Of a DNA stretch of 46,098 bases, positions 7,937 to 37,399 are shown piece after piece. The DNA lies in IMG/VR virus record IMGVR_UViG_3300043777_000169, positions 1 to 46,098 of that record. One strand, 5' to 3'. Under the pieces are notes generated by a model. That model saw only the letters and a list, made by a program, of their open reading frames with translations. It searched no databases and had not been told where the DNA came from. Origin of the DNA: a virus. The position numbers were made by a program, and so were the translations under genes. Positions within the stretch are counted from its first letter, which is position 1, and every line of letters begins with the position of its first letter.

Positions 7937-9652
7937 ATGAAACGCACACTCTACACAGTCGCGGCGATCCTCGCATTGAGTCTTGCTGCGGTCGGTCAAT
8001 TTGCCTCCGGGGTCGCACCCCGCGCGGCGCTGCAATACAACTGGCAGGCCAGCATTGTCTCCGGCAACACTTCCACCGGATCGGCCAGCATTACCCTTGT
8101 CGGTCAACCTGGAGCGGGCGGCGCCATCATGCCGAACGGCTCTGTGCTCGCGTGGCAGACGGTGTTTCCGAACCTGATGCCGATCGTGATCAACGACGCC
8201 AACGCGGAGCAGGTCACGCCAACAGCGGTATCCTTCGGCGCTTGCCCGGCCGGCAACATTGGCGTCGGCGGCTCTTCGCAGTGCGTCACCATCACCGCCA
8301 GCTTCACCTATACCCACGGCGCCGGGGCGTATCCGACCGTATCGGATGCGACCTATGGCGCGCAAACGGCGGCAAACTATCTCTGGGCAACCGGCGGCGG
8401 CAACGTTGAAGTCGATAGTACGTGGGCGGGGAAAGTCTCGACCAACCCAACCGGCTCTTACGCGAGCGCCAGTGCCGCACTCGCCGCCATGATTCCCTAC
8501 TCTAACGTGGGGATCGTGGACTACCGCAACGGGTTCGCTCAAGGCTGGCAACCCACTCAAAGCGTGGCGACAATTATCGCTGCGCCCACCACCCTAACCT
8601 CGACCACGGTGGGATTCGGCCTCAATGGCGCGAACACCACGGGCGGCACCTACACCGGAACCTCGACGTATTATTACTGCGTTGCTTATGTCGATCCGAT
8701 GGGGAATGAAGGACCCTGCTCTGCCACCTTCTCAGCGGCCACAGCTGGCACGGGAAGCACTAATCAGATCGGGTTCGCAGCTCCTGCCGCTTCTCCTGGC
8801 GCTGTAGGCTACGTGCCTTACATCTCACTCGCCAGCGGCTCCTACAATCTGACCTATCAGGTTCCGGTTACATCCACGGTCTGCACCATGACGAAGGTCC
8901 AGACCGTGACCCCAGCCTGCGCAGTCACCAATACCACCTACCTGCAGACCGGTTCGAATGCTGTGGTCAGTGCGCTGACGGTGAACACCGCTCCGCTGCA
9001 TTTACTGAAGACCACCGCTTCCACCACCTCCGCCTACATCGGGACGCCGAGCGGCCGAACTGCTTACGCCTATGCCCCGGTCGGCACAGTATCCGCGCAG
9101 GGATTGACCTATAGCCAGCAGGCCTTTACTGTCGCCACGGCTGCGGCCACCACGGTTCCGGCAGTCATCGCGACAATCCCGGTTCCGACCGGCGACATGA
9201 ACTTCCCCGGCCGAACTCTCTGCGTCGAAGGCCAAGCCACGGAAGCAACTGCCGGTTCCACCGCAACCGTTCAGAACTTTGAGTTTCTATGGGACGCAGC
9301 CGGTTCGAATACCACTGGAGCGCCTGTCATCATCGGAGATCTGCAGCTTACCGCGACCCTGGTAACCGCCAATGCGGACAACTGGAGCTTCCACGAATGC
9401 TTCCAGACCACGGTCAGCGGCAGCAGCGTTACCGCCGGATCCATTCAGCCTTTCGGTGGGCAGCTGATCTCAACCTATGGCGCGGGAGTCCTCGGCAACG
9501 CCGGCACGGAGGTGAACGTGAGCGCGATTGGCTCGCTGAACCTGGCCGGAACTGGCGGCAACACCCAGCGGCTGCACGTTGTGTGGCTGCATACGACCGC
9601 AACCGATGGCGCCGGTGTGCAGGTGACCGCGCTTCGCTCCTGGTGGCAGTAA
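7937..9652 (+). CDS. exported structural or fibre-like protein with signal peptide, 571 aa
   Basis: A large Thr/Ala/Gly-rich beta-strand protein. The first 20 residues form a Sec signal peptide (MKRTLYTVAAILALSLAAVG) with a probable cut at AVG/Q21. The middle (about 215-300) looks like a fibronectin or Ig-like strand region with Cys pairs (TYYYCVAYVDPMGNEGPCSA). The C-terminal part resembles a jelly-roll virion protein (TALRSWWQ at the end). The start has AAGGAG 10 nt upstream. It is odd to find an exported protein between terminase and portal. It shares its signal-peptide style with four later genes, so it may be a fibre or appendage subunit. Confidence 0.75.
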   Translation: MKRTLYTVAAILALSLAAVGQFASGVAPRAALQYNWQASIVSGNTSTGSASITLVGQPGAGGAIMPNGSVLAWQTVFPNLMPIVINDANAEQVTPTAVSFGACPAGNIGVGGSSQCVTITASFTYTHGAGAYPTVSDATYGAQTAANYLWATGGGNVEVDSTWAGKVSTNPTGSYASASAALAAMIPYSNVGIVDYRNGFAQGWQPTQSVATIIAAPTTLTSTTVGFGLNGANTTGGTYTGTSTYYYCVAYVDPMGNEGPCSATFSAATAGTGSTNQIGFAAPAASPGAVGYVPYISLASGSYNLTYQVPVTSTVCTMTKVQTVTPACAVTNTTYLQTGSNAVVSALTVNTAPLHLLKTTASTTSAYIGTPSGRTAYAYAPVGTVSAQGLTYSQQAFTVATAAATTVPAVIATIPVPTGDMNFPGRTLCVEGQATEATAGSTATVQNFEFLWDAAGSNTTGAPVIIGDLQLTATLVTANADNWSFHECFQTTVSGSSVTAGSIQPFGGQLISTYGAGVLGNAGTEVNVSAIGSLNLAGTGGNTQRLHVVWLHTTATDGAGVQVTALRSWWQ

Positions 9653-9655
9653 TTC

Positions 9656-9820
9656 ATGCCGTGGCTCTCGAAGGCGCAAGCCCGCTGGGGCCACAGTTCA
9701 AGCGGCGTCCGCGCTCTGGGCGGAAAACAAGCCGTCCACGAGTGGGACGCCGCGACTACCAAAAACACCCTCCCCGACAGAAAACGTCATGTCGTCCCGC
9801 GAAGAAAGAAACGCAGCTAA
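9656..9820 (+). CDS. short basic phage protein, 54 aa
   Basis: A 54-aa protein beginning MPWLSKAQARWGHSSSGVRA. The motif SKAQ-x-RW-x-H...G...ALGG...V-x-EWD belongs to a short basic protein type often found next to phage portal genes. The tail is Lys/Arg-rich (PRRKKRS). It starts 3 nt after the previous stop and overlaps the next gene by 32 bp. Molecular role unknown. Confidence 0.75.
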   Translation: MPWLSKAQARWGHSSSGVRALGGKQAVHEWDAATTKNTLPDRKRHVVPRRKKRS

Positions 9821-10034
9821 GAAGGGTCGGCGAAAGTTCCGCCACGAAATCCTTAAGCGCATGGAGAAGGTTTCCATGATGCGAGGACGTTGCTTTCTGC
9901 GACCGGCCCAAATTGCCTATGGGGCGAAACTGTTGACCGATCGCTACATGCACCAGGTCGACAACGCGCCCACGCGAGTCGCGCCCGCACCTGAGACCGT
10001 TCCGGAAAGAGCTTCCGCTTGTCCCGCTTCCTGA
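9789..10034 (+). CDS. hypothetical basic protein, 81 aa
   Basis: An 81-aa basic helical protein (MSSREERNAAKKGRRKFRHE) followed by a Pro/Ala-rich tail. It overlaps both neighbours (32 bp and 16 bp). The first half is strongly positive and may bind nucleic acid. Function unknown; the coding call rests on its place in the rightward gene series. Confidence 0.5.
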   Translation: MSSREERNAAKKGRRKFRHEILKRMEKVSMMRGRCFLRPAQIAYGAKLLTDRYMHQVDNAPTRVAPAPETVPERASACPAS

Positions 10035-10237
10035 AAGCAGCCATCAAGCATCCGGGCCGCATGAAAGAAGGCGCAGCTCGCTCTGGAATGGGCCTGCACG
10101 CCTACATGGAGAAAGAGTCGCATTCCTCAGACCCGTCTGAGCGCTCGGCAGCGAACCTCGGGCTGCGATTTCAGAAGGGCGGGGATCTGCATCACGGCAA
10201 AAGCAAGCACGTAGTTCCGCGAAGAAAACGTGGCTGA
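10019..10237 (+). CDS. hypothetical protein, 72 aa
   Basis: A 72-aa protein from TTG 10019 (alternative ATG 10061). The sequence FLKAAIKHPGRMKEGAARSG, then a short acidic part and a basic, His-containing tail (HHGKSKHVVPRRKRG), resembles other short proteins placed just before phage portal genes. The VVPRRK tail is shared with the 54-aa gene at 9656 (HVVPRRKK), pointing to a common origin. It overlaps the portal start by 8 bp. Confidence 0.6.
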   Translation: MSRFLKAAIKHPGRMKEGAARSGMGLHAYMEKESHSSDPSERSAANLGLRFQKGGDLHHGKSKHVVPRRKRG

Positions 10238-12704
10238 CGAACTCTACAAAGCGAACAGCGCGGCCATGGAAAGTGCCGACGCAGCCGACAGCGAATCCGT
10301 TTCAACTGATGGGCTCGAAGACCGCGAAGAAGCGGAATGGGATGATCCACTCGCTGACGACGAAGAGCTCCAGAAAGCGTTTCTCTCGCTCTACCTCGAA
10401 TGCACCGCCGAAGACCGCTATCCGCGACTCATTGAAGTCAAGGACGTAAAGCAGGCGGAGAACTACTGGGCGGGGCGGCAGTACTGGTACTGGTCGGACA
10501 AAGATGAAACCTGGAAGCCCGCGCCCGGCGTCGGCGTTTCGCCGCTCGGGGATCTCGATTTCGACGAGATGCCGCGCTTCGAGTTCGTCACCAACATCTA
10601 CCAGGCGACCGGGCTCACGGAAATCGGAGCGGTCGCCGGAGCGCCGCCGCGCATCCGCTTCTTCCCGAAAGATGCCGACAATCCAGCAGACAGCGACACC
10701 GCCGAAGGCCGCACGAAGCTCAGTGAACTTATTGAGCGCTGGAATCCCCCGCAACTGTTGCTGCAGGAGGAGATGTACCACGCCTGGACGGGCGGCTTCA
10801 TCTGTCTCTGGACCCGATACGTATCGGACGGGGAAAAGATGGGCTTCGACAAGATTCCAGGACTCGGCAGCAAGGAATCGGATGTCGACTCGACGATTCA
10901 GTGTCCGCAATGTGGCTGGTCCGCCCCTGCTGCGGAAGCCGCACCACCCGTACCGTGCCCGCAGTGCGGGACGGGCCTGACCGACGAAAATGTTAGCGAG
11001 GAAGAACCGATCTCAGTTCCAGTCGATGGGCAAGATTCGGAAGTTCCGCGCGGGCGGCAGGTCATCGAAGCCTTCGGCGCACTCAACTGCAAACGTCCGC
11101 AACACACAAACCATCAGAGCGAGTGGCATTACTTCGCAATCGAGCGGGAGATCCACTATTCGATCTTGAGAGCTGATGCAGCCACCGACGAGATCGCAGA
11201 CAAGATTCGACCGGGGATGAACTTCGGCCCGGATGACGCTTTCGAACGGAATGCGCGCCTGGCTGTAGCAGAGAACGCCAAGCTGCCCACCCAGACCGGG
11301 GCGAAACAATCGACGCTCGTCACCCACGCCGACGTCTGGTTCCGGCCTTCGGCTTACTGGATGATGAAGGACAAAGCGAAACGCAAACGGGCACAAGAGA
11401 AGTTCCCGCGTGGCCTTCACGTGCAGTTCGCCGGAAACACTTTCTACAAATCCGAAATCCAGTCGATGGACGATTGCATTCGCTGCACCCACGCGATGCC
11501 AGGACGCGGCCAGCATCGGCCCGCCGTCGGCACCTCGATGATTTCAGTGCAGGACCGCTTCAACACCTTCGCCAACATCTCAGCAGAAACTTACGAATAC
11601 GGAATACCGATCACCTACCGGGCTTCCGACACATTCGCACAGGAAGCCAATGACGACCAGCGGGCAGCTCCCGGCCTTGAAGTAGAAGTTGCTCTGCAAC
11701 CAGGGACCGATATCCGCACGCGGCTGATGCAGACGCGAGCGGATTCCGTTTCGCCCGATATGCAGAAGCACATGATGGATCTTTTCGGCCCGGTGACGCA
11801 GTACCTCTCCGGCGCGTTCCCGGCGCTGAGTGGCGCTACGGGCGCGGACCAACAGCCGAACACGCTCGGCCAGCAATCGATGCAGCGCGACCAGGCCATG
11901 GGCCGCATGGGTGTGTTTTACGTGAACCTGAAGCAGGCTCACGCAGACATCATGACGCTCGCCTGCCGCGACTATGAATCACACTGCGATGGCGTGGTGA
12001 CAATCCCAGTCCTCGGCGACTCTGGCGACTTTGAGAATGAATCGGTGGACATCACCGCGCTCGAAGGCGATGCCGTAGCCTATCCCGAAGGCGATGAGAA
12101 CTTCCCCGAACTCTGGAACCAGCAACGCGCGACCGCAATGCAGCTTGGCGACTCTCCCCAGGGCGCGGCGCTGCTGCAGGACATGTCGAACCGCAAACTC
12201 TTTGCGCGGCTCACGGGCATTCCTGATCTAAAAGTTCCCGGCGTCGAAGGGTGGGAATTCCAACTGCGCGAAATCAACGATCTGACCAAGGTTCCCGAGG
12301 GCGACCAGCTCTTAGCCGGAATCGCTCCGGACGTATCGGTCGAGAAATACCAGGAACATCCGATTCACGTGGCCTGCTGCAAATGGTGGCTGAACTCACA
12401 GCGCGGCCAGAAGATGAAGCGCTCGAATCCGATCGGCTTTCAGGCTGTGGTCGAGCACCTGGCGCAGCACGAAGCAATGATCCCAGCTCCGCAGCCCGAC
12501 GAGAAGCCGCTGAGTGAGACTTTCAACATCGCCTTCAAGGACATGCCGCCTGAAGCGCAGGCGCAGGCGCTCGCGAAACTCGGGATTCAGGTCACACCGC
12601 AAGACTTCATTCAAAAACTCGCACTCGATCAAGCAAGCAAAGCGCCCAAAGTGGTTCCATCCGGCCCTGGCGCAGCCGATCAAAGGATGCAACCCCATGC
12701 TTAA
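10230..12704 (+). CDS. portal protein, 824 aa, with zinc-ribbon-like insert
   Basis: A large portal protein of the size seen in podoviruses. It forms the ring at the head vertex through which DNA enters and leaves. The start is GTG 10230. An acidic N-terminal tail is followed by a typical portal body (YWAGRQYWYW, NIYQATGLTEIGAVAGAPPRI, and QEEMYHAWTGGFICLW near residue 190). Around residues 229-252 there is an insert with IQCPQCGWS...PCPQCGTG, two C-x2-C pairs typical of a zinc ribbon, which is unusual for a portal. The C-terminal third is helical (stem and barrel). It follows the short basic proteins and is followed by scaffold and capsid genes, as expected for a head module. Confidence 0.85.
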   Translation: MADELYKANSAAMESADAADSESVSTDGLEDREEAEWDDPLADDEELQKAFLSLYLECTAEDRYPRLIEVKDVKQAENYWAGRQYWYWSDKDETWKPAPGVGVSPLGDLDFDEMPRFEFVTNIYQATGLTEIGAVAGAPPRIRFFPKDADNPADSDTAEGRTKLSELIERWNPPQLLLQEEMYHAWTGGFICLWTRYVSDGEKMGFDKIPGLGSKESDVDSTIQCPQCGWSAPAAEAAPPVPCPQCGTGLTDENVSEEEPISVPVDGQDSEVPRGRQVIEAFGALNCKRPQHTNHQSEWHYFAIEREIHYSILRADAATDEIADKIRPGMNFGPDDAFERNARLAVAENAKLPTQTGAKQSTLVTHADVWFRPSAYWMMKDKAKRKRAQEKFPRGLHVQFAGNTFYKSEIQSMDDCIRCTHAMPGRGQHRPAVGTSMISVQDRFNTFANISAETYEYGIPITYRASDTFAQEANDDQRAAPGLEVEVALQPGTDIRTRLMQTRADSVSPDMQKHMMDLFGPVTQYLSGAFPALSGATGADQQPNTLGQQSMQRDQAMGRMGVFYVNLKQAHADIMTLACRDYESHCDGVVTIPVLGDSGDFENESVDITALEGDAVAYPEGDENFPELWNQQRATAMQLGDSPQGAALLQDMSNRKLFARLTGIPDLKVPGVEGWEFQLREINDLTKVPEGDQLLAGIAPDVSVEKYQEHPIHVACCKWWLNSQRGQKMKRSNPIGFQAVVEHLAQHEAMIPAPQPDEKPLSETFNIAFKDMPPEAQAQALAKLGIQVTPQDFIQKLALDQASKAPKVVPSGPGAADQRMQPHA

Positions 12705-14225: not shown

Positions 14226-15479
14226 ATGCCAGCACAAAATCTAAATTCAGTTGCACTGCAACTAGAAAAGGTGCGGAAGACGGTGCCGACCGCCTACGAG
14301 CAGGAAGTGATTCTGCTCGATCTGATCGACAAGCGCGGCGACGTGGTCGACGCCTCTACCCGCAACATTCGCCTGCCGCAGCTTATCCGGCCGGGCGGGA
14401 AATTCAGCCAAGGAACCGCGGACTTCGACGATATGGGGCGCGGCTCTGGATCGACCTGGGATGTGGGGACGCTTTCCACTCTGCATTTCCGGTTTGCCTT
14501 TGAAATCTCAAAGCTCGCCGAGTACGCCTCGAAGGGCAACGACAAGGCGGTTGAAGATGTGGCGGTGCGCGAAGTCGAGGAAGCGCTCAAGATGTTCAAG
14601 CGCGCTCTCGATTGCGTCTACAACACCAACGGGACCGGGCAGCTCGACACCATTCAGTCGATCTCTGGGACTGTCCTCACCGTCACCAACCCCAACCTGT
14701 TCTATTTCAACCAGGACATCCAGATCTATCCTTCTGGCCTGGCTTCGGCGTCGCGCGGTCTGGCGACAGTAGTAGCAGTCGATCCGCTCCTCAAGACGAT
14801 CACCCTGAACGCTCTGCCGGCCGGAACCTCGGCGACGGACGCTCTGGTAATCAATATCTCCCAGGGCGCGGGCGGAGCAAACCCGGTCTCGCTCGAAGGG
14901 CTGCTCTACAACCACGTGGATTCGCAGTCGGGCACCTGGAACAACCTGGCGCGCTCGACCTACCCAGAAGCCCTGAAAACGCCGCACGTCGCAGCGGGTG
15001 GGGTCACGATCACCCCGGCACTGCGCCGTCTCGGAGAAAACAAGCTCCGCAGGGTGCTCGGTGTGAATTTCGAAGAGCCGATGATGGCCTACATGAACGT
15101 AGACCAGGAAGCGGCCTGGGAAAACGCCGGAATCACCGTAACCACGATCATCCAGAACCAGCTAAAGGGTGACGAGTCGCAGGACATGTTGAAGCGGAAG
15201 CCGCCGGGAACCTTCGGTGGAATTCCGATCAAAACCTCGATCCACGCCACCATCCAGCGCATTGACGTGATCCTGCTCAAGCACTGGGGCCGGGGCATCA
15301 CGAAAGAAATCGACATGTTCGAACTGGGAGGCCAGACTACCTATCAGGTATACGGCGCTTCCGGCGGTCTCGAAGCTGGCTATCTGCAGTACTTCGACAC
15401 CGTGTTCAATGTGTTCATGGATCAGCCCAGGTATGGAATTTTCTGGGACGGTCTGGCGCTTCCGGTTGGCGGCTACTAA
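14226..15479 (+). CDS. major capsid protein, 417 aa
   Basis: The coat protein that builds the head. It lies directly after the scaffold and has an ATG start with a GGAG site 8 nt upstream. It opens with an N-terminal helix (VALQLEKVRKTVPTAYEQEV), then a strand-rich core. An inserted small beta domain spans about residues 140-215 (ISGTVLTVTNPNLFYFNQDI). A typical capsid C-terminal region follows (VLGVNFEEPMMAYMNVDQEA, RYGIFWDGLALPVGG). The 107-bp gap before it probably holds the leader that lets this gene be highly expressed. Length and context fit a HK97-fold coat protein. Confidence 0.88.
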   Translation: MPAQNLNSVALQLEKVRKTVPTAYEQEVILLDLIDKRGDVVDASTRNIRLPQLIRPGGKFSQGTADFDDMGRGSGSTWDVGTLSTLHFRFAFEISKLAEYASKGNDKAVEDVAVREVEEALKMFKRALDCVYNTNGTGQLDTIQSISGTVLTVTNPNLFYFNQDIQIYPSGLASASRGLATVVAVDPLLKTITLNALPAGTSATDALVINISQGAGGANPVSLEGLLYNHVDSQSGTWNNLARSTYPEALKTPHVAAGGVTITPALRRLGENKLRRVLGVNFEEPMMAYMNVDQEAAWENAGITVTTIIQNQLKGDESQDMLKRKPPGTFGGIPIKTSIHATIQRIDVILLKHWGRGITKEIDMFELGGQTTYQVYGASGGLEAGYLQYFDTVFNVFMDQPRYGIFWDGLALPVGGY

Positions 15480-18003: not shown

Positions 18004-18780
18004 ATGCCAGTCCTCGCATCCTCAGCCTACAACACAGCGGAAGACGTTCTCAACCGGATTCGGGTCATCATCAACGACTCGGAAATTGCCGGAGGAGACG
18101 TGCTGACCGACACCGCTCCGTTTACCTTCACCCTGCTCAACGGAGCTTATGAACGGGTGCAGTTGGAGCTGGCCAAGGCGGGCGTTGAAACCTTCACGGC
18201 GGAGTGGTGGCTGATTGGGCTGCCCCTCATGCCCACGGTCGACCCGGAAGCGCGGATGGTGGTCGACGACACGGGCTGTAACATTCTCTATCCGAATGGA
18301 GTTGGCGATGTCTTTTCGATGACGCCGCAACTGCCGACCAACCTGGTGCTGCCGCTGGAACTTTACGAGCGCCAGACCAACACGACCAACTTCGCCGCGC
18401 GCATGAAGCAACCGGAGGGCGGCCTCACGGCGATCGAGCAGCAGGATTTTCTCGTCGACTGGGAATGGCAGACGGACGGCCTTCGCTTTCGCGGAGCACA
18501 GCAATCCCAAGACGTAAAGATCAAGGGCGAACAGCAGCTACCTTTGCTGGTCACGCCCACCACTCCCGTGCCCATCCGCGGAGTGTTGAACGCCGCCGCT
18601 TATTTTGGGGCGATGATTTTCGCGGAGTCGCGGGGCGGCATCATCGCGCCCCAATACAAAACGCACGCCGACGAGGAAATATTTTTACGCTTGCAGATTT
18701 CCGCGCGGCGGCGACAGCGCCAGCAGATAAGACGGCGTCCTTACTCCGGCCGTGGTGGCCGCGGTTATCCCAATCTTTAG
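18004..18780 (+). CDS. putative head-tail connector or neck protein, 258 aa
   Basis: A 258-aa protein beginning with helices (AEDVLNRIRVIINDSEIAGG, NGAYERVQLELAKAGVETFT), the style of head-tail adaptor proteins, followed by strand-rich sequence (RMVVDDTGCNILYPNGVGDV). The C-terminal 30 residues are strongly basic (ARRRQRQQIRRRPYSGRGGR). Its place after the capsid and before the large tail protein fits a connector. The function is inferred from position and general form. Confidence 0.65.
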   Translation: MPVLASSAYNTAEDVLNRIRVIINDSEIAGGDVLTDTAPFTFTLLNGAYERVQLELAKAGVETFTAEWWLIGLPLMPTVDPEARMVVDDTGCNILYPNGVGDVFSMTPQLPTNLVLPLELYERQTNTTNFAARMKQPEGGLTAIEQQDFLVDWEWQTDGLRFRGAQQSQDVKIKGEQQLPLLVTPTTPVPIRGVLNAAAYFGAMIFAESRGGIIAPQYKTHADEEIFLRLQISARRRQRQQIRRRPYSGRGGRGYPNL

Positions 18781-26005: not shown

Positions 26006-29000
26006 ATGAACAACCGAATTCAGTGTTTCTTTTTCGCCGCAGTGTTGCTTCTCTGCGCCTGCTTCGCCCACGCCCAGAACGCCCGCGTAGACGGAGTCAT
26101 CTCTTCGCGCTACAACAACCCGGCTGCGGGAGCTTACGTGGCGGCCTGCGCGCAACCGGCGACAATCACAGGATCTGCGCCCTACTGCTCTCCCCTCGCC
26201 CCGCTATGCGCTTCACTGACTGATTCGAGCTGTGCCGCTTCAACCTTCCCGGTACAGGCGGATGGACTCGGAAATTACCACTTCTACATTCCGATCGCAG
26301 AGGGCCCCTTCACCTACTGTTTTTTTGGTTCGTCTCTGGCTATCCCGACCTTGGCGAACGGTGGCTGTCTCCCCGATCAAAACGTGATCGGCGCCGGAAA
26401 TCTCGCCTCTTGTATCGGGGGAATCAACTGCGTCACGGACTACCCCGGCGCCACCGCCGATGCGCAGATCACGGCTTGCATCTCGGCCCTAGCAGGCGAA
26501 AGTGGAATCTGCGACGCGCGCGGCTACGGCTACAGTCAGCAAACCATCGCGAACTGCCCAATCAATGTCGGCGGAACTGGCCAATCCGTCACCCTCTTAA
26601 TCAACGTCGCCACCACTTTCAACATTACCTGCAACGATCCCACAGACTACGCCTTCCACGTGTATCCCGGTTCCACGATCCACGGAGACGGCACCGGAGC
26701 ATGGGGATACGGGAACAACGAAGCAAACTTTCAGGCGACTACAGCCAACCTTAAGGGAATCATCTCGAACTGGCCGCGCGTTCCAACCGGAAATGCCAGC
26801 GTGATGTCCGTGGAGAATCTTGCTCTGCGGTCAAACGTGGGTAGCACCATCACGGAAGGCCTGATCAGTCTTTCAGGGGTTTATTCCGGGACGACTGTAC
26901 AAAACGTAAACACAGTCTATTGCGGAGGCGGAGGTGCCGCTCTTTACATCACCGCGCCCACCTCAGGAGCTTATTTCCTCACCAGCGACCTAACTTTTGT
27001 GAATGATGACTTCGATTGCGGCGGAGCGACAGCCTCAGGCCACGCCATTGAGATTCTTGACGGCGGATCGTCGTCAGGCGTGGGCTCGCTGAATTTCTAC
27101 GGATCTCAGGCGCAACACTCGGCACTCTCGGAAGTCGATTTGAATGGAAACGGAAGCGGGCAGTGCGGCTCGATTTTCTTCATGGGCTTCCACACGGAGA
27201 ATGCGAGCTTCAACACCGTCCCGGCCCACGTAACCATCAACGACTGCCACAACGTAACCTTCGACAACTGGAACACGAGTGGGGCCACACCCTCAGCTGG
27301 AAACGTGATGACCGTGGCACAGGATGCCGCGAACGCCACCCACGACATCTACATTCGCGGATCACGCTTCAACGCCGGAACGAACGTGGTTTCGAGCACC
27401 GTAACCGGACTGAACAATTTAGCTTTCACCGCTCAAGCCGATTCCTACATGAGCGTCGAGTACTTCTCGGGCTTGCCACTCGACCCCGGAATTTGCGTGA
27501 TTGGAGGCTCTTGCGGAGGCGGTGGTGGTGGCACGGTAACCAGCGTGACCGGAACCGCGAATCAGATCACGGCTACCGGAACCACGAGCGTCGTTCTGTC
27601 GCTTCCGAGCGCCATCGTTGCGCCGGGAACCATCAGTGCTACCGCGTTTGAAGGCTCTGGCGGTTTAAACCTTCAATCTACCCTCACTGCCGGTTGTCCC
27701 TCATTGCCATCGCCCCCAGGCTCAGGTCTCGGCCTGGTCGCATTCGATCCCAGTTGCAACCTCGCAGGTTCAGTCGGAACGGGCTCATTCGCTGATTACT
27801 ACACGATCAATTTGTTTTCAGCTGCTTCTGTCGGCGCTGCCACCCTTGGGACGGGCGGAGGCACGGCGAATGCCCAGACCTGGACCCATACCAACGGCCC
27901 AACGATCACCTCCTACGGTCCTGGGATGATCATCGAGTGGGTTCCGGCAGCCAGCAACACCTCCACGACCCCGACCATGACTGCGGACTCCGGCCCTACG
28001 GACACAATCGTCAAGGTGAATAGCGCCACTTCAGGCGGCAGCGGCCCCGCATTCGGACCTTTGGCGGCAAACGATATTTACATCGGCGGCTGGGCCTACG
28101 CGATGTATAACGCAACCGTTTCGGAGTGGATCTTGCTGAATCCAACGAGCGGGAGCGGAAGCGCTGGAACCAGCGCATTGTCGGGCCTGACGGCGGCGAT
28201 CAGCTCAAACACCATCGCGAACGGAAACTTCCCGCAACAGTGGAATTGGTTTCAGACGACCGGATCTCAGTCCGCGATTACCTTTGGCGAGACCTCGGCA
28301 GCTACGGGCTCGGGCGATATCGAGGTCAATATCCGCACGCTGAATGGGTCCACCGCTTTCCCCTTACAGGTTACCGCTGGGGGAACGGCAAACGGCGTCC
28401 AGATGAGCACGTCTGGAGTGTTGAGCGCTATCGGCTCGGGGCAAATTCTTGCCACCAATGGCGTAACCAACCCGTGCGCAAGCGATTCGATTGGCTCTCT
28501 GTTGTATCAGGGAAGCTCCGTACTGAATTGCTTACTTGCTCCGACCGGACCGACGGGAGTGCCGAATTTCGTCTACACAGTTCCCGGAGCGGCGACAAGC
28601 TACGGGCCTGCTGGAGTACCTATCGACGTGCAGGCGACGAGCAGCTACTCACTTGCGCTAACTGATCGCGGCCAAGTTGTTGACACAACCAATTCCACGG
28701 GCTCGACAGGGTTCGCGGTAGCTTCCCCGGGTTCTTCTGGCTACGGACAGAGCTTCCCATTTGTTTGGCTGAACAGCGGCTCCGTGGTGGGAACGGCCAC
28801 CCCAACCAGCTCCACGGTGAACGGCAACGCGACACTGAAGATGGTCGGGGCGGTTTCCGGTCACAATCCCGAAGCATCATTCTGGTGGACGGACAATACG
28901 AACTGGTGGTCTGCGGTCGTTCTGCCCACAGATGCGAATGGGTTCCTCGCGGCGGAGGGAATTGCCAGCGGGAGCATTATCAACTCGATGCTCGCGCATG

Positions 29001-30655
29001 CGGCCATCACAGTCCAAGGCCAGACCTGCACGCTCGGACTCTCCTGCAACATCAACAGCGTCACCACTGCTCACGGCGTAGCTCTGAATGAAGGCTCAGC
29101 AGCTCAATTAGGCGGGACGGCGGTTGGTGCGACAGGGACAGTTCTGTGCGGCAACACCGCAGCCGATCCGTCCTTCTGCACAGTGCCGATTTTCGCAGCG
29201 ACAAACCTGACAGGAAATACGACGCTGGCGGCTTCGGATTTTTCCACCTTCGCGTCGAAGTACATTGCGTCGGGAAGCCCCACGATCACACTGGTTGCTA
29301 GCGGCTCTCAACCCGCGAATGGGCAATCAGTCCTGATCCTGAATTACGGCGGCGGCACACCGATAATCGCGCGGAGTGGTCAAAACATCAACGGCGCAGC
29401 CAGCAATATCACACTGAGCGCAGGTTCTGCGTCCGCGCCGACTGGCGGTCTATTCGTCTCCGACGGAACGAATTACGAATACTACCCTCTCGGGGGGAGC
29501 GGTGGTGGGGGAAGCGGCGTCTCTTCCTTCACTGGAGACGGCGCACTTCTCAGCAACAGCGCATCTACCGGCGCGGTGACGGCAACGCTCGTGAATGCTG
29601 GGGCGGGAACGGTTTGGGGAAACAACACTGGGAGCTCGGCTTCGGCGACCTACACCCCAACTCCAAACCTCGGTGTCTCCGGGACTGCTGGCACACTCGG
29701 ATTGTTTGCCGCCAGTGGCAACTTCAAGACGACCCTCGGGAGCGCAGCTACGGCCAGCAACACATTCAATTTCCCCGCAGCCGTGTTCACCACCGGGCAC
29801 ATGGGCTACTGCGTGACGAGCTCCACCACCTGCACCTGGACGGATACAGGGTATGCGTACAACGCGATTCCGAACGCGGACCTCGCAAACTCAGCCATCA
29901 CAATCGGGGGCACCTCGGTTTCTCTCGGCGGCTCGACTTCATCCTTCCCGAATCCGGGAACAATCGGCGGCACCACTCCGGGGATCGGAGACTTCTCAGC
30001 GCTGAACTGCGGAGTGTCGAGCACCACAGCCTGTATCCTTACGGGCTACGGATCGACGAGCGGGACCGCTACGCTGACCTGGCCTGCTGTGGCTGGGACA
30101 ACGACGAATGCCATCGTGTCCAGCAACAATCTTTCCGCTCCGGGCTTAGTCGACAGTGGGCTCACCACATCAAACGCTATTCCGAAAAATAGCAGCGCAG
30201 GTCTACTCTCCGAATCTTCGCTTGTCGATAACGGAACAAATGTCAGCACCTCCGAGAACCTGCTGGTCACCGGAATCCTGGACGGCACCGCGCCGATCAC
30301 GATCACAACCGGCACCAGCGCGAATCTCGGCTCAACTTACAGTTCCGGATACACCTTCAATCAGGAAGGCACAGCGGGAACGGGCGTCACCTACACCCTC
30401 CCGGCGACCGCAGTCGGCAAGCAATACTGCGTCCAGAACTCCGGCACTACCAGCGTGGTGAATAGCGGCGTACTCACGGTCTATCCGCCATCTTCGTCTT
30501 ACGTCATCCTCAACGGTGTCGTGAACACAGTCGGCGGCGGCGGGACGCACGGAGTCGCGTCGGGCGGCGCGGCAGGAGACTCGGCCTGCTTCGTGGCTAT
30601 CGACGCGACCCATTGGGAAGTGTTCGTCGGGAAGGGCACATGGACCGAAAACTAA
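26006..30655 (+). CDS. giant exported spike or tail-fibre protein, 1549 aa
   Basis: Residues 1-23 form a Sec signal peptide (MNNRIQCFFFAAVLLLCACF, then AHA before Gln24). The next 150 residues are Cys-rich, suggesting disulfides formed outside the cytoplasm. Residues about 150-480 look like a right-handed beta-helix of the pectate-lyase or tailspike kind (NITCNDPTDYAFHVYPGSTI, VENLALRSNVGST). After a Gly run (about 508-515) comes a long strand-rich fibre shaft with repeats such as VTSVTGTANQITATGTTSVV, ending in a C-terminal Gly/Val domain. It is the first of four large exported proteins in a row. It is probably a receptor-binding or polysaccharide-degrading appendage. Confidence 0.75.
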   Translation: MNNRIQCFFFAAVLLLCACFAHAQNARVDGVISSRYNNPAAGAYVAACAQPATITGSAPYCSPLAPLCASLTDSSCAASTFPVQADGLGNYHFYIPIAEGPFTYCFFGSSLAIPTLANGGCLPDQNVIGAGNLASCIGGINCVTDYPGATADAQITACISALAGESGICDARGYGYSQQTIANCPINVGGTGQSVTLLINVATTFNITCNDPTDYAFHVYPGSTIHGDGTGAWGYGNNEANFQATTANLKGIISNWPRVPTGNASVMSVENLALRSNVGSTITEGLISLSGVYSGTTVQNVNTVYCGGGGAALYITAPTSGAYFLTSDLTFVNDDFDCGGATASGHAIEILDGGSSSGVGSLNFYGSQAQHSALSEVDLNGNGSGQCGSIFFMGFHTENASFNTVPAHVTINDCHNVTFDNWNTSGATPSAGNVMTVAQDAANATHDIYIRGSRFNAGTNVVSSTVTGLNNLAFTAQADSYMSVEYFSGLPLDPGICVIGGSCGGGGGGTVTSVTGTANQITATGTTSVVLSLPSAIVAPGTISATAFEGSGGLNLQSTLTAGCPSLPSPPGSGLGLVAFDPSCNLAGSVGTGSFADYYTINLFSAASVGAATLGTGGGTANAQTWTHTNGPTITSYGPGMIIEWVPAASNTSTTPTMTADSGPTDTIVKVNSATSGGSGPAFGPLAANDIYIGGWAYAMYNATVSEWILLNPTSGSGSAGTSALSGLTAAISSNTIANGNFPQQWNWFQTTGSQSAITFGETSAATGSGDIEVNIRTLNGSTAFPLQVTAGGTANGVQMSTSGVLSAIGSGQILATNGVTNPCASDSIGSLLYQGSSVLNCLLAPTGPTGVPNFVYTVPGAATSYGPAGVPIDVQATSSYSLALTDRGQVVDTTNSTGSTGFAVASPGSSGYGQSFPFVWLNSGSVVGTATPTSSTVNGNATLKMVGAVSGHNPEASFWWTDNTNWWSAVVLPTDANGFLAAEGIASGSIINSMLAHAAITVQGQTCTLGLSCNINSVTTAHGVALNEGSAAQLGGTAVGATGTVLCGNTAADPSFCTVPIFAATNLTGNTTLAASDFSTFASKYIASGSPTITLVASGSQPANGQSVLILNYGGGTPIIARSGQNINGAASNITLSAGSASAPTGGLFVSDGTNYEYYPLGGSGGGGSGVSSFTGDGALLSNSASTGAVTATLVNAGAGTVWGNNTGSSASATYTPTPNLGVSGTAGTLGLFAASGNFKTTLGSAATASNTFNFPAAVFTTGHMGYCVTSSTTCTWTDTGYAYNAIPNADLANSAITIGGTSVSLGGSTSSFPNPGTIGGTTPGIGDFSALNCGVSSTTACILTGYGSTSGTATLTWPAVAGTTTNAIVSSNNLSAPGLVDSGLTTSNAIPKNSSAGLLSESSLVDNGTNVSTSENLLVTGILDGTAPITITTGTSANLGSTYSSGYTFNQEGTAGTGVTYTLPATAVGKQYCVQNSGTTSVVNSGVLTVYPPSSSYVILNGVVNTVGGGGTHGVASGGAAGDSACFVAIDATHWEVFVGKGTWTEN

Positions 30656-32421
30656 TCCTCTGCCTCTTCCTGTTCACGGGGCTGGCTCATGGCCAGCTCG
30701 TGCAAGAGATCATAGCTAACTCTAATGCTGGGGTGATTGGACCGTTCAACTTCACCCTGTTTGACCAGGGAACATGCACCAGCGGAAGCGCACCGACGAC
30801 AACCTGCCTCGGGACTTCGACGTACCCCTCCCTTCCCTCCGGAGCCAGTTACAGTGTCACAAACACGAACACCGACCTGCTGGTCTCAAACTCCGTCAAT
30901 TACAACTGGCCAACCTTCACCCTGACCGGGGGCGCGTGGGCGAATAGCTCCTCAAACAGTCTCCGTCTGGCTTACGGAATTGGAACGGGCGATAACGTCA
31001 TATTCAACTTCCCCTCTTCCGGCATTCAGAACACCGTTTCATCCTGCACGCCATTTGATACCACGCTGCCACAAACGACATCGTTCACGGGGCGCATCGA
31101 CACTTGGACGATGGGAGCTAGTGCCAGCCAGTTCACCAACATGCAACTGGAGAACGGAGGAACTGAACTCTACACGCCAACGGAATGCGGTGTGACCGGA
31201 ACGACGAATTGCACGGGAGGAGAATTCGTTCCAGCCGGTTCGATGCCGACGAACACCTGGCAGATTTGGTGCGAAAGTCAGACTCTCGGCGCTAACGGCA
31301 CATCGTTTGACGGCGTCTGGAACACTCCCCAAAGCGGCGGGGCTTTGGTTTCTGGGTCGCTGATGACGAACACCGCCACCGCGACGACCGGATTGACCAA
31401 TATCAAGCAAGAGACTCAGATAGGAGTCAACGCTGGGCCGACCGGTGGATACTACTCGTACTGGGGAACCCAGATTTTCTGTGGTCTGATCTCATCCCAG
31501 ACCGCGTGCGGATTTCCCGTTGCTCCCGGTCTCCAGTTGATTGCCCCGACGATCTCTCCGGCGAGCGAAACCATAGGCTCGAATCCGACCGTCACGATGA
31601 CGAACATTTCCTCGGTGACGGATAGCTACTACTACACGACCTGCACCACGGCAGGCTGTACGCCAGCCACGCCGACGACCGCGAGCACGCCCTACAGCGG
31701 AAGTTTTACAGCCACGCCACCTGAAGCGGTCAGCGCGATTGCCGTTAGAGCAGCGCCCTACAACAATCCAGTCAGCGCGATCACAACTAATCAGTACATC
31801 GCGCCGAACGCTGGGTTCGTCGCCACTGCCAAGTGTACTGCTGCGGCCACAGCGAACTGCTCGAACACGGGATTGTCAATCGCTTCCGGCGACATTATTG
31901 TCGTTGGCATCGAGGGTGGAAGTGGCTCGGAGACTTTCACGATCAGCGATTCAAACTCCGACACGCCAACTTGTAGCAGCGTGGTCGAAGAAGTCACGGA
32001 CGGCTATTACAACCAGATGTGCATGATGAAGGCTGGGGCCACGGTGACTTCGATCACCTGCGCCCAGAGCAATGCCGCCAAGACCGCAGTGTGCATCGCA
32101 GCGTGGTATACACCTGGAACGTTGGCTGGCACTGTGGATAAAAGCACCGGAGCAGACAACCAGAACGTCACAAACTGGAGTAGCGGAAACACGGCAGCGC
32201 TCGCGGGCAATTCAGAGCTGGTAGTGGAGTTCTGGGCGGCACCCTTCTACGGGGCTTACACGTCTACCTCTACCAGCGGTGCCACCCAGCGCAATATCAC
32301 AACGGCGACATTGCTGGCGGCGATGGGTGACCGAACCGCTTGGAGTTCATCGGCTACGGCGGCCACTGGTGTATGGAGCACTGCACTTTACGGCGTTGGG
32401 ATGGTGATGGTTATAAAATGA
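30640..32421 (+). CDS. exported fibre-like protein, 593 aa
   Basis: ATG 30640 lies 16 bp inside the end of the preceding gene. A signal peptide covers residues 1-18 (MDRKLILCLFLFTGLAHG) with a cut before Gln19. The first half resembles a ConA or LamG-type beta sandwich (FTGRIDTWTMGASASQFTNM, then NTWQIWCESQTLG). A Pro/Thr linker (ISPASETIGSNPTVTM) leads into a second strand domain with several Cys pairs (IASGDIIVVGIEGGSGSETF). It is likely an exported, glycan-binding appendage subunit. Its stop overlaps the next start in an ATGA junction. Confidence 0.7.
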   Translation: MDRKLILCLFLFTGLAHGQLVQEIIANSNAGVIGPFNFTLFDQGTCTSGSAPTTTCLGTSTYPSLPSGASYSVTNTNTDLLVSNSVNYNWPTFTLTGGAWANSSSNSLRLAYGIGTGDNVIFNFPSSGIQNTVSSCTPFDTTLPQTTSFTGRIDTWTMGASASQFTNMQLENGGTELYTPTECGVTGTTNCTGGEFVPAGSMPTNTWQIWCESQTLGANGTSFDGVWNTPQSGGALVSGSLMTNTATATTGLTNIKQETQIGVNAGPTGGYYSYWGTQIFCGLISSQTACGFPVAPGLQLIAPTISPASETIGSNPTVTMTNISSVTDSYYYTTCTTAGCTPATPTTASTPYSGSFTATPPEAVSAIAVRAAPYNNPVSAITTNQYIAPNAGFVATAKCTAAATANCSNTGLSIASGDIIVVGIEGGSGSETFTISDSNSDTPTCSSVVEEVTDGYYNQMCMMKAGATVTSITCAQSNAAKTAVCIAAWYTPGTLAGTVDKSTGADNQNVTNWSSGNTAALAGNSELVVEFWAAPFYGAYTSTSTSGATQRNITTATLLAAMGDRTAWSSSATAATGVWSTALYGVGMVMVIK

Positions 32422-34664
32422 TCCGCAAACTTATTCTCATTCTCGCGTTGTGCGCCCCGGCTTTCGGGCAGTCCTGGTCCGGCGTTCTCGCCACTAGCCG
32501 TGCTATTAATTGGACGGGGGCTGGCCTTCCGGCAACCCTGCCCGACAGCGAGACGACCGCCAATCCCTGGACCCCTCCCGTCCGCACGCAGTGTGGATCA
32601 ACCGTCAATCCCACAGGCACCTCAGCGGACGCCGCCGCTATCAACACTGCCCTGCAAGCCTGCACTTCGGGGCACTACGTTCTACTCGGGGCCGGAACGT
32701 TTGAGATCGAAAGCGGAGCGAGTGGGACGGGAATTTGTTATGGCAGTTTTCCCTGTGTCAACTTCTACTCCGTGAGCGGCGTGACCCTGCGTGGATCAGG
32801 GGCAAACTCGACCAAGATCGTATTGGCGTCGGGGAACACCACGATCACGTGGGGTATCTCGAACTCTCCCGGATCGGGCACGTGGTCGGGAGCTTCCGCT
32901 GGCGCAACTTCATTCACGTTCTCCGGCTCCGGGTTGGCGAACGGCGATCTAATGGTGCTCAATCAATGCGACACGGGCTTTAGTGGATCTAGCTGCACTG
33001 GGTCATTTACGGACAATGGTGGTCTTGCGGTCTGCGGGGCTATCGGTGGTATTTGTTCCCAGCAGACGCGGTCGGACACGAACAGGAATCAACGCCAGAT
33101 CGTCCGCGTGACCAACGTCTCAGGAAGCACGGTGACTTTTACTCCTGGCCTCTACTTGGCAAATTGGGCCTCCGGCCAAAGTCCGACGATCAGCTATGCA
33201 GCCTACCCCTACGGAGACGGACTGGAGGATTTGACCGTCGATGCGACCGCCAGCACCTACACCCACCCGGTCGAGGCCTACAACACCTACGGCTCATGGA
33301 TAAAGGGTGTGCGCATTGTCGGTGCTGGTCCAGGCGGCTCAAATTACATTCACGACCTGAAGAATTTTCTCGTCACCAATAGCTATCTCGAAGCCTACAG
33401 TTATGCTTCCTCCAGCGACACCGTGTTCAATCAAATGGGCAACGCCTCAGACGTTCTGGAGCTGAACAACATCATCCACGATGGCCAGTTGTGGAACGGA
33501 ACCGGAGGGAATACAGGCGATGTGCTTGGATACAATTTCGCGCGTGACTCCGAGACCAGCTATTACCAGCTCGCAGACTACGACCACGAGCCGGGTGGCT
33601 CAATGATGCTCCATGAGGGGAACCAGTCGGGGCTATTCCTCGGAGACAACACCTGGGGCAGTCAGGATCTCGAAACCCTCTTTCGTAATTATTTTTCGGG
33701 CGGAGACGGGCCATACACGACTGCCCCGAATCCCCGAGTCATCACGATCAATGAATCCGTGCGCTTTGAGAACATCATTGGAAACGTACTCGGCGGCCCG
33801 CTCGTTTCGACTTATCAGGTTTCGAGCGGTGACTCTGGCTACGTCTATCAGTTCACGTCTGGCGATTCCCTCGACCTGTCAAGCTCGATGCGTTGGGGCA
33901 ATTATGACAGCGTGACTGAAGCCGTTCGCTGGTGCGGGAACTCCAGCAGCCCAGGATGGTCGAGCACTTGTTCTTCGACTTCGGAAGTCCCAGTGACGCT
34001 CACGGGGAACGCGGCCCCGTTCGAGAACCCCGTTCCCAGCAGCACCGCGCTGCCCTGCTCGTTCTTCCTGACCGGCTTCAGTTCCACGACCTGCACGGCG
34101 TTTCCGACAGGCGGAACCGGCCTTAGTTGGTGGAAGGTTTGCACGTCGTGGTCTAGCTTCCCGACGACTTGTGCTGGAACGCAGACTCCCCCCTTCCCGG
34201 CAATCGGCCCCGACGTGACAGGCGGGCCGTATATGGGCGGATACGCCTATGACATTCCTGCGTCGCTCGCGTTCCAGCACCTTCCCATTGACACGAACTA
34301 CCAGAACTCCTACAGCATCATTGGTTCGAGTTGGACTGGCGGAGTTGAAACGTTGACGATCAGCGGTCTGCCAGCGGGTTCGCACATCATCGGCGGATTT
34401 CAGGTCACTGGAACTTCAGGATGCAATACTTCCGGCGCTCCGGGCGGCTCGACAGAATTCGTGATGACGACTTCTAGCCCCGTCCCGAGTTCGGCTACGG
34501 CGACTACGGTCTCTTATCCCGTGGCGTCAAATCCGGGCACTTGCGCGGGTGGGCATTTTCTTTTCCCCGACGTGCGTCAGTTCGACGAGCGAGTCTACGA
34601 AACAGATTCAACTGTAGTGGTGCCCCCTCCGGCTCCCTTCCCCATGCTCGCCCAAGCACACTAG
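32418..34664 (+). CDS. exported beta-helix protein, 748 aa
   Basis: The signal peptide is MIRKLILILALCAPAFG with a cut before Gln18. A parallel beta-helix fold follows: after an Asp/Ala loop (GTSADAAAINTALQACTSGH), the repeated strand pattern of pectate-lyase-like proteins runs through about residue 480 (GVTLRGSGANSTKIVLASGN, NYIHDLKNFLVTNSYLEAYS, SDVLELNNIIHDGQLWNGTG). The C-terminal part is Cys- and Ser-rich, ending in FPDVRQFDERVYETDSTVVV, a tail style seen in secreted bacterial beta-helix proteins. This suggests acquisition from a host exported-enzyme gene. It probably binds or cuts surface polysaccharide; catalytic residues cannot be fixed by eye. Confidence 0.72.
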   Translation: MIRKLILILALCAPAFGQSWSGVLATSRAINWTGAGLPATLPDSETTANPWTPPVRTQCGSTVNPTGTSADAAAINTALQACTSGHYVLLGAGTFEIESGASGTGICYGSFPCVNFYSVSGVTLRGSGANSTKIVLASGNTTITWGISNSPGSGTWSGASAGATSFTFSGSGLANGDLMVLNQCDTGFSGSSCTGSFTDNGGLAVCGAIGGICSQQTRSDTNRNQRQIVRVTNVSGSTVTFTPGLYLANWASGQSPTISYAAYPYGDGLEDLTVDATASTYTHPVEAYNTYGSWIKGVRIVGAGPGGSNYIHDLKNFLVTNSYLEAYSYASSSDTVFNQMGNASDVLELNNIIHDGQLWNGTGGNTGDVLGYNFARDSETSYYQLADYDHEPGGSMMLHEGNQSGLFLGDNTWGSQDLETLFRNYFSGGDGPYTTAPNPRVITINESVRFENIIGNVLGGPLVSTYQVSSGDSGYVYQFTSGDSLDLSSSMRWGNYDSVTEAVRWCGNSSSPGWSSTCSSTSEVPVTLTGNAAPFENPVPSSTALPCSFFLTGFSSTTCTAFPTGGTGLSWWKVCTSWSSFPTTCAGTQTPPFPAIGPDVTGGPYMGGYAYDIPASLAFQHLPIDTNYQNSYSIIGSSWTGGVETLTISGLPAGSHIIGGFQVTGTSGCNTSGAPGGSTEFVMTTSSPVPSSATATTVSYPVASNPGTCAGGHFLFPDVRQFDERVYETDSTVVVPPPAPFPMLAQAH

Positions 34665-34678: not shown

Positions 34679-37399
34679 GTGAAAATCTCCTCTCTCGCTC
34701 TTCTCTTTCTCTCCTGTTTGGCGTGTGCCCAGGGCCAGGCTCGTGGAGGAAAATTCTCCGGCGGCCAAGTCTTGTTCAATAGCGGCGGCTTCTCCGCCTA
34801 CACCGGGGAAATTGTCGTGAATCCACCTGCCGCCTATTCTCTGGGAGGGACCACCAAGAACGGCAACACGACGACGGATACCACTTACCCCAGCGGAAAT
34901 CCCGCGACCGTTTTTCGCTGCACCGATGTGAACATGACACCCGGTAAGACGACAGTACCCGGATACAACGCCGGAGAAGGTGGCAGCGGTTCGGCGGATT
35001 TAGTGAGTCCTGACGATTATGCGTTGCGGCTCGAAGGATCTTCCGGCTACTACTTCATCACACTATTCAACCCGAACACGCTGGTCTGCGGCGACCCGAC
35101 CACGGGCAACGTCATCACGCAGGACAAGAACATAGCCAGCCCCGGTTCATCTTCTTCGGTCGAGGCCTTCGGCGGGGGAACTTTCGGGCAAGGGACGCCT
35201 GGCATCTACACGGTAGGTGGCCAGACGACGCGCTCCACTTCGGCCACCCAGATCACGCAGTACACGATCAACACGCATGGGGGCGCAACCAGCACATGGG
35301 GGCAGTTCACCTGGGCACCGATTGCGGATGCAATCAACGCGCTGCCTATCAATTCAGCGGCTTGGACCGCGAGCACGAGCTACGCTTACGGCGCGACGGT
35401 GACCTATGCCATGACGAGTGGACAGCTGGTGGCCTATCCCACGCCTCCGTCCACGATCACGCCCAACGTGGGGGATCTCGTCCAGCCGACAAGCGGCTGT
35501 TCTCCGACCACAGCTTTCAAGGCCATCACGGTGACCGGACCGACCAGCGGCTCGACGCCGAACTGGAATAGCGTTTGCTCCGGTACGCAGATCGGCAGCA
35601 TTACCGATGGGGGAGTCGTCTGGAAAGGTATCGGCGGCCCAGCAGTTTTTGTTTATCAGAACACAGGCACAGCAGGGACCTCCGGCAGCTCGACGCCCAG
35701 CTTTGTGCCAGCCTCGAACCACCCCACGCTGTTAACCACGGCGACGGACTCGGGCGGCATCGTCTGGACGAATATCTGCCCAGCCGTTTCTCCGACCTGG
35801 CAGTCCTGGGGCGGCTCCGGTCTGAATAGCCTGGTCCCGAGCGAAGCACTGAGCACCTGCACCTACGGAGTGCATCAGAGTCAGAACATCACGGGCATCG
35901 CGGTTTCCGGCGGCACCGCAACAATTTCCTGGGCGGGCACCAGCTTTCTTAAGGCTGGGCCGGCAACGATCAGCGGAGCCAGCGTCTCGGCCTGCAATGG
36001 ATCTGTCACCCTGCTCACGGCGAATGCCAATACGGCCACATTCAGCGCGGGATCATGCACGGCCAGCACCGGAGGGCTCGCGGCAGGCGACGTCTTCACC
36101 ACGAACGGAGATCAGGGCAGCGGCATCTTCGCGGTGGAGTGGGATGGAAATCTCAACGTCTACCACACGTTCAACACAGCGACTCTCATCCAGACCGACA
36201 ATCTCTGCTCGACGGGTCCGGCCGGAGGCGGAGTCAGCTGCACCGGAGGATCGTTTTCTTCGACGGCTCATGGGCCGCTGACTGGAACGGCCTGCACCGC
36301 GTTTATCCATAACGTCAAATCTCGCTACGGCCAATATGTGATCGTGGCGAAGCAAGGAACCCTCGGCCCCGCAACCTGCGCCAATGGCTCTTATGTCTGG
36401 AGAGCGCAGCAGACGCCTTTTGCCGCGAGCAGTCAGGTGTCCGAACTTCCGTTCCAGCCGAACCACTGGGACGATATGCGGAACAATTTCTTCGCCGTCA
36501 CAGTGGCCGGATATCCAGCGAACGTATCTGGGTACGGCTCGTTTGCGGTCAAGGAACCGCTCGGAACGCTTCCCTTCGCATTCCCTCCGCCGACGGTCTG
36601 GGCGAATTTCCCGTGCAGCACCAGCAGCGCCCCGTATACGAGTATCCCTCCCTGCCAAGAGCAGACCTACGTGGACTCGCATTTGTCCTGCGCCTACAAC
36701 CCAGGGATGACGGACACCTGGCCCTGCATGGGAACGATGTACAACCTGCTCACGCTCGACATCAAGCCGTTCATGGCCTGGCAGGGCGAGGAGATCGGAG
36801 TTTCGACGACGCCGGTGATTCCCTACTCGTCTTTCCCGGTGGCTGCACCGATCGGCAACACCGTCTATCGCTTCGGGCACACGAGCAACTGGAATACCAG
36901 CGGAACGTTCAGTGCGCAGTTCGCCATCTCCGAAGTGGCTCCGAGCGGGAACTTTATTTTCTTCACCACAGACAATCAGGGGACGTTCGGATCGATCACG
37001 GGCAGCTCGCCGACGGTTTGCAGCGGAGCCTGCACAAATGGCCAGTTAGCCGTCGCCGCGGTGCCTGCGAGTCCGAGTTGTGTTGGTGGGCCGGTCTGGG
37101 AGCCGAACCACAACTATGTCGTGGGTAACATCGTCATTCCGATTACCGCTGGCAACGCAGGCAGCGGTGGAACCTTGGACATCTTCCAGGTTGTCTCTGT
37201 CGGAAGCTCGGGCGGGGTTTCTGGCGCTACCCAGCCATCGGGATTTGTGTCTGCCAGTTTCACGACGCCGACGCCCACCCAGGTAACAGAGAACGCAGGG
37301 GTGAATCAGGTGGTGTGGCAAGACATCTACACCGCGCCAGGAGCGAACGGTGGGAGTCTGTGCCGGAATGAAGTGTTGGGAATGAAGTTGCCGCACTGA
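34679..37399 (+). CDS. exported large beta-rich protein, 906 aa
   Basis: GTG 34679 starts a signal peptide (VKISSLALLFLSCLACA) cut before Gln18; a longer upstream frame has no signal and was not chosen. The first 200 residues resemble a beta-propeller blade series (DDYALRLEGSSGYYFITLFN, IYTVGG). Cys-rich strand domains with linkers such as WTASTSYAYGATVTYAM follow, of the type seen in carbohydrate-binding linkers. A propeller-like section about 500-820 contains SGIFAVEWDGNLNVYHTFNT and GNTVYRFGHTSNWNTSGTFS. It may be an exported tail-associated recognition protein or a host-derived secreted protein. It directly precedes the lysis genes. Confidence 0.7.
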   Translation: MKISSLALLFLSCLACAQGQARGGKFSGGQVLFNSGGFSAYTGEIVVNPPAAYSLGGTTKNGNTTTDTTYPSGNPATVFRCTDVNMTPGKTTVPGYNAGEGGSGSADLVSPDDYALRLEGSSGYYFITLFNPNTLVCGDPTTGNVITQDKNIASPGSSSSVEAFGGGTFGQGTPGIYTVGGQTTRSTSATQITQYTINTHGGATSTWGQFTWAPIADAINALPINSAAWTASTSYAYGATVTYAMTSGQLVAYPTPPSTITPNVGDLVQPTSGCSPTTAFKAITVTGPTSGSTPNWNSVCSGTQIGSITDGGVVWKGIGGPAVFVYQNTGTAGTSGSSTPSFVPASNHPTLLTTATDSGGIVWTNICPAVSPTWQSWGGSGLNSLVPSEALSTCTYGVHQSQNITGIAVSGGTATISWAGTSFLKAGPATISGASVSACNGSVTLLTANANTATFSAGSCTASTGGLAAGDVFTTNGDQGSGIFAVEWDGNLNVYHTFNTATLIQTDNLCSTGPAGGGVSCTGGSFSSTAHGPLTGTACTAFIHNVKSRYGQYVIVAKQGTLGPATCANGSYVWRAQQTPFAASSQVSELPFQPNHWDDMRNNFFAVTVAGYPANVSGYGSFAVKEPLGTLPFAFPPPTVWANFPCSTSSAPYTSIPPCQEQTYVDSHLSCAYNPGMTDTWPCMGTMYNLLTLDIKPFMAWQGEEIGVSTTPVIPYSSFPVAAPIGNTVYRFGHTSNWNTSGTFSAQFAISEVAPSGNFIFFTTDNQGTFGSITGSSPTVCSGACTNGQLAVAAVPASPSCVGGPVWEPNHNYVVGNIVIPITAGNAGSGGTLDIFQVVSVGSSGGVSGATQPSGFVSASFTTPTPTQVTENAGVNQVVWQDIYTAPGANGGSLCRNEVLGMKLPH

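Follow-up and report, generated by a model that had tools for sequence, protein, structure and literature searches.

The window, that is, the whole stretch of 46,098 nucleotides analysed here (IMG/VR virus record IMGVR_UViG_3300043777_000169), carries on its plus strand the genes of a phage virion together with five genes, designated fib1–fib5, whose products begin with a signal peptide (SP). The genes for the terminase large subunit (TerL; 4222..5778) and the major capsid protein (14226..15479) were assigned by matches to phrog_979 (E 3.7e-12) and phrog_14242 (E 1.6e-7), respectively. An 824-residue portal-like protein (10230..12704), 41–82% identical across 21 related records and with no informative match in Pfam or PHROG, was assigned from size, position, and conservation, and the tail-adaptor-like (18004..18780) and tail-nozzle-like (19219..22545) proteins were assigned from position, the former adjoining the fib2 slot and the latter an SP-less fib2 homologue in related phages. 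PDB sequence searches with the capsid, adaptor, and nozzle proteins returned nothing useful, and no match to the capsid and portal proteins was found among cultured phages. The SP genes are located in the late virion cassette and adjoin tail genes: fib1 (7937..9652) lies between the TerL and portal genes, and fib2 (26006..30655), fib3 (30640..32421), fib4 (32418..34664), and fib5 (34679..37399) form a block flanked by the last virion genes and by an SLT-domain lytic transglycosylase gene (37405..37866; PF01464 E 9e-15) immediately 3′ of it. Within the block, fib2, fib3, and fib4 overlap end to start, and a 14-base gap precedes fib5. The window also contains an FkbM-type methyltransferase gene (PF05050; 979–1767), possibly a glycan-modifying accessory gene.

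According to the original prediction, the five genes begin with Sec signal peptides cut before Gln21, Gln24, Gln19, Gln18, and Gln18, with which the translation agrees exactly: MKRTLYTVAAILALSLAAVG^Q21 in fib1, MNNRIQCFFFAAVLLLCACFAHA^Q24 in fib2, MDRKLILCLFLFTGLAHG^Q19 in fib3, MIRKLILILALCAPAFG^Q18 in fib4, and, from a GTG start, MKISSLALLFLSCLACA^Q18 in fib5 (^, predicted cut). A positive n-region, a hydrophobic core, and an A-x-A-type site were found in 5/5 by a scan combined with shuffles. In this home-made heuristic scan, whose calls are heuristic, which ignores the +1 residue in scoring and which relies on predicted gene starts, an SP followed by Gln was detected in these five only among the 28 genes tested, and shuffled N-termini scored as such in 0–1.5% of cases per gene. 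No lipobox with Cys at +1, as in superinfection-exclusion lipoproteins, was found, the +1 position being Gln in 5/5. The fib2 gene has no clear Shine-Dalgarno sequence, and its product contains an L-C-A-C stretch absent from most relatives. The block fib2–fib5 totals 3796 residues, consistent with the more than 3700 first described for the four consecutive genes, and the many cysteines also claimed amount to 8, 32, 16, 16, and 20 in mature fib1–fib5, with mature chains of 551, 575, and 889 residues for fib1, fib3, and fib5, respectively.

Conservation in related phages, which had been proposed as a check, was examined in whole or near-whole records of 23 capsid-related phages, the capsid having relatives in 24 IMG/VR loci and 29 Acidobacteriota loci. 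The signal peptides are kept. Relatives of fib1 are present in 20/23 of these records (and in 68 IMG/VR loci overall), and in 20/20 a hydrophobic N-terminus ending in [AGST]^Q precedes the conserved domain, with an unusually long leader in a few. Similarly, the fib2 N-terminal domain is preceded by an SP in the capsid-related records wherever the gene start is visible, and, in 15 loci of Acidobacteriota genomes, comes after starts resembling ...A^QGSRKDD. With the mature fib2 domain as the query, so that the set is unbiased for SPs, an SP-like hydrophobic start was found in 39/42 IMG/VR loci and none in 3/42, some long starts being judged by eye. The fib4 relatives, L002 and L003, both have an SP followed by Gln, no fib3 relatives were found in IMG/VR or otherwise, and no viral relatives of fib5 were found in IMG/VR. 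Outside the conserved parts, the fib1 and fib2 relatives diverge.

A capsid profile searched against GTDB genomes gave 29 loci, 29/29 of them in metagenome-assembled genomes (MAGs) of Acidobacteriota. The hosts are taken to be soil Acidobacteriota, misbinning of MAGs being possible but made unlikely by this agreement. Many of the 29 loci hold relatives of the portal, capsid, adaptor-like, and nozzle-like proteins and, judged from this gene content, are prophages or phage-derived loci. A domesticated or gene-transfer-agent origin of these loci was set aside, because a strong fib2 N-domain turned up in very few genomes of the 396 sampled. In two MAG loci, host-type genes occur amid phage structural genes (L099 11530–13920 and L086 16605–17744; by eye, universal stress protein-like, RNA methyltransferase-like, and acyltransferase-like), and these loci may be prophages in decay or after rearrangement, or else something domesticated.

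Searches against Pfam and PHROG gave no match for any of the five SP proteins. The mature N-domain of fib2 (26075..26383; approximately residues 24–126), a putative virion anchor, starts with the exposed Gln, contains Cys25 and Cys38 conserved in alignments, and is followed by a 1400-residue variable fibre region. Comparison of its predicted structure (pLDDT 81.6) with predicted viral structures (BFVD) gave named best matches that are nearly all tail spikes, fibres, pectate-lyase-type proteins, or depolymerases (probability ~1, TM 0.50–0.64, E 0.003–0.2, none with E ≤ 0.001). Against the PDB, TM values of 0.58 for a cyanopodophage tail-complex chain and 0.50–0.54 for the P22 tailspike head-binding domain were obtained with non-significant E-values, the top E-value (0.03) belonging to a soil "phage catechol 1,2-dioxygenase" (9yh9). 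By profile, the N-domain matched two proteins at their extreme N-termini: a tail protein of a Marinomonas phage (probability 94%) and a "head-binding domain" protein of an Escherichia phage (90%). Both have the domain at the very start and no SP. Some likeness of the N-domain to CarboxypepD_reg (PF13620), which occurs in exported bacterial proteins, was also noted, a single member scoring just above the cut-off. In three related podoviruses with an SP-less version (G424–G426), the domain protein lies between adaptor-like and nozzle-like genes whose products are homologous to those of the window, as are the capsid and portal in G424 and G425. These comparisons of models and profiles are consistent with a tail-spike/fibre-type N-domain in fib2 directly after the SP.

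No N-terminal virion-binding domain was seen in fib3, fib4, or fib5. As for the beta-helix, sandwich, and fibre regions originally ascribed to the block, a beta-helix fits fib4, from its sequence pattern and distant bacterial relatives. Distant relatives of fib4 are found in host chromosomes, some with an SP, and part of the SP block may therefore stem from host secreted proteins. The C-terminal part of fib1 is weakly lectin/jelly-roll-like, which is a hint only because the model is of low confidence (pLDDT 56).

Cysteines in an oxidising compartment are usually paired, and the mature cysteine counts are even in 5/5 SP proteins of the window, with a cysteine content of 2.15% versus 0.84% in its other virion genes. 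After clustering at 60% identity, even counts were observed in 53/58 clusters of proteins with an SP followed by Gln (p=1.7e-11) versus 26/47 core virion proteins (Fisher p=2e-5), counts that are not fully independent because clusters in one family share ancestry; at 40% identity the contrast (43/48 versus 16/20, p 0.25) is not significant because few controls remain. Among SP-bearing fib1 clusters, 30/32 have even counts, including short ones (199–301 residues, 2–6 cysteines), and SP-less fib1 homologues (L279, L284–L287, L292, L296–L299) have 0–3 cysteines, with L247 and L258, which are cut at contig ends, left out of this set and L291 having an SP by eye. In the SP-less fib2 homologues (L130, L133, L135), Met directly precedes the domain, exactly one cysteine is present in ~335 residues, and Cys38 is replaced by Pro in 3/3; Cys25 and Cys38 are both present in 30/30 SP-bearing fib2 sequences of the alignment. 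Homologues without the hydrophobic N-terminus had been expected to speak against export. Such homologues exist, but the paired cysteines are lost with the SP, which argues for export of the SP-bearing proteins, and this joint loss is seen in two unrelated families (fib1 and fib2). Export looks real on the grounds of SP conservation, cysteine parity, and joint loss of SP and cysteines; as predictions from sequence, export and disulfide formation of the SP proteins are well supported.

The cut before Gln in all five, singled out at first as a special feature, turned out to be mostly an SP habit of Acidobacteriota. Six Acidobacteriota genomes provided ~1.1 Mb of chromosomal DNA (L163–L202, L303–L322), in which 29/72 predicted SPs without later transmembrane segments have Gln at +1, compared with 0/12 in Escherichia coli, the share being uneven by genome (17–60%, with ~60% in G341 and G025). 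Gln at +1 of the phage SPs thus appears to be mainly a host habit. In the Q-rule, Gln at +1 is converted to pyroglutamate, which shields the protein from aminopeptidases (PMC5837995, PMC10653852), and the rule has been held to be exclusive to Bacteroidetes (PMC5837995, PMC10653852, PMC10367356). The proteins here likewise have Gln, which probably becomes pyroglutamate, after a signal peptidase I site, but their hosts are Acidobacteriota; the published scope of the rule contrasts with the Q-rule-like habit seen in Acidobacteriota chromosomes. Matches to type I glutaminyl cyclase (PF05096) were found in 64/199 Acidobacteriota genomes, with no correlation with Gln at +1 among the small number of genomes compared. 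Porphyromonas gingivalis phages likewise have genes that follow the rule of their host; these Q-rule SP genes are unassigned in function and have been proposed to modify the outer membrane (PMC10367356), unlike the spike-like proteins here.

A similar SP block is present in a cultured phage, Tunturi_2 (PP885685; L302 9802–22744; host Tunturiibacter psychrotolerans X5P2), an Acidobacteriota podovirus that has been purified and imaged (PMC11924767). Its gp12, gp13, gp14, and gp17, which are of the tail/pectin-lyase type and adjoin the gp11 tail protein, have SPs, three of them cut before Gln. The mature proteins contain 20, 10, 20, and 34 cysteines, respectively—all even—and the cysteine content of the SP proteins is 1.5–2.7% versus 0–1.1% in the other tested genes. 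In gp12, the SP and Gln are followed by a fib2-type N-domain (HMM E 7e-7, 14-protein set). Tunturi_2 differs in that none of its virion proteins tested by BLAST matched those of the window. The main text of the Tunturi_2 paper mentions neither signal peptides nor mass spectrometry (PMC11924767). With such a phage in culture, the question of export is testable now. Tunturi_3 and Tunturi_4 lack SPs on their tail genes, which rules out that all Acidobacteriota phages do this and marks the SP block as a lineage trait.

Virions of tailed phages are taken to assemble wholly in the cytoplasm. We lean, modestly, towards the five genes encoding receptor-binding or tail-spike-type proteins that are exported by Sec, folded in the periplasm, and docked on virions at lysis. 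An infected Acidobacteriota cell would send fib1–fib5 through Sec; signal peptidase I would cut the SP and expose Gln, which would probably cyclise to pyroglutamate; and folding and disulfide formation would follow in the periplasm. Once lysis had freed the virions from the cytoplasm, the proteins would attach to the short tail—fib2 via the spike-type N-domain directly after its SP—and would presumably serve to bind the host or degrade glycans. The features of this picture that can be read in the sequence are conserved SPs, even cysteine counts, the disappearance of paired cysteines together with the SP, a spike-type N-domain, and late-gene position. With an SP immediately in front of it, a spike anchor would have to encounter the virion beyond the cytoplasm, for which lysis is the simplest occasion. 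Thus, where envelope display or secretion and assembly after lysis had been offered side by side, export is borne out and docking fits best, since the fib2 SP precedes a tail-spike-type N-domain, with surface display or secretion as the alternative. Points against this explanation are the lack of relatives and of an N-domain in fib3 and fib5, the distant relationship of fib4 to exported bacterial proteins, the likeness of the fib2 N-domain to CarboxypepD_reg, fold matches that do not reach significance one by one, and the weaker parity contrast at 40% identity.

No precedent for exported spikes in tailed phages was found in the literature searched. P22-type tailspikes and depolymerase/fibre proteins share a short conserved N-terminal beta-sandwich, a large variable C-terminal fibre or beta-helix, and a position beside short-tail genes, but start with the anchor, have no SP, and fold in the cytoplasm, whereas here an SP stands before the anchor and paired cysteines are abundant. 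In filamentous phages, the virion proteins pVIII and pIII are exported by Sec before assembly, pIII having disulfides and binding the receptor; the likeness lies in this export of virion proteins ahead of assembly, and the difference in that filamentous virions assemble in the inner membrane, whereas the present phage is tailed, has dsDNA, and carries a lysis gene. That a tailed dsDNA lineage builds its spikes outside the cytoplasm—exporting them, having them oxidised and capped in the periplasm, and finishing its virions only at or after lysis—is in our estimate an evenly balanced proposition. If true, it would constitute a second assembly route for tailed phages, with spikes passing via Sec, and would yield disulfide-stabilised spikes suited to soil, explaining the cysteine richness. 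It would also follow that an SP on a phage gene should not automatically be read as the mark of a host-modifying gene.

The chief alternative, clearly less probable in our view, is that the proteins are exported without virion docking, being secreted or displayed to bind or degrade glycans and so to open exopolysaccharide, mask receptors, or exclude other phages. The SP and even-cysteine signature need no virion role, fib4 resembles exported bacterial beta-helix proteins, and outer-membrane modification was the role proposed for the Q-rule SP genes in phages of P. gingivalis (PMC10367356). Nevertheless, a spike-type virion N-domain directly follows the SP in fib2, the SP-less homologues hold a slot within the virion cassette, and SP blocks adjoin tail genes in G000, G001, and Tunturi_2. 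A conserved N-terminus joined to an exchanged C-terminus, as in receptor-binding proteins, also counts against a purely non-virion role, and neither a lipobox cut nor an outer-membrane anchor can be recognised. A dual use, in which the exported pool first acts in the envelope or outside, loosening the capsule or blocking re-adsorption, and later docks on virions, shares the support of both readings, and free spikes would after lysis work as soluble depolymerases; being less economical, it is considered improbable.

Readings without export fare worse. Tailed-phage spikes are normally cytoplasmic, so the hydrophobic N-terminus might be an uncleaved plug in virions assembled there rather than a working SP, but the AxA^Q geometry is kept despite variation in the hydrophobic sequence, homologues lacking the SP start right at the domain, and the cysteine counts are even, making a plug very improbable. 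Hydrophobic starts arising by chance or start codons wrongly called, to which the GTG start of fib5 and the unclear Shine-Dalgarno sequence of fib2 might point, can scarcely be credited given the shuffle test, and are refuted by conservation in dozens of relatives. Two further features of the related loci were noted. The record G001, a podovirus with an SP fibre block, contains four open reading frames with LAGLIDADG-like motifs (by eye) that break up its head-gene region (L068 14929–16914, 17536–18123). In several Acidobacteriota loci, a small, conserved SP-bearing gene (mature ...CTASQAAAVQCFVANAV...) lies on the opposite, minus strand immediately upstream of the capsid gene (L084 8827–9594, L099 8870–9844, L104 8804–9514, L105 8912–9643, and L107 8919–9770).
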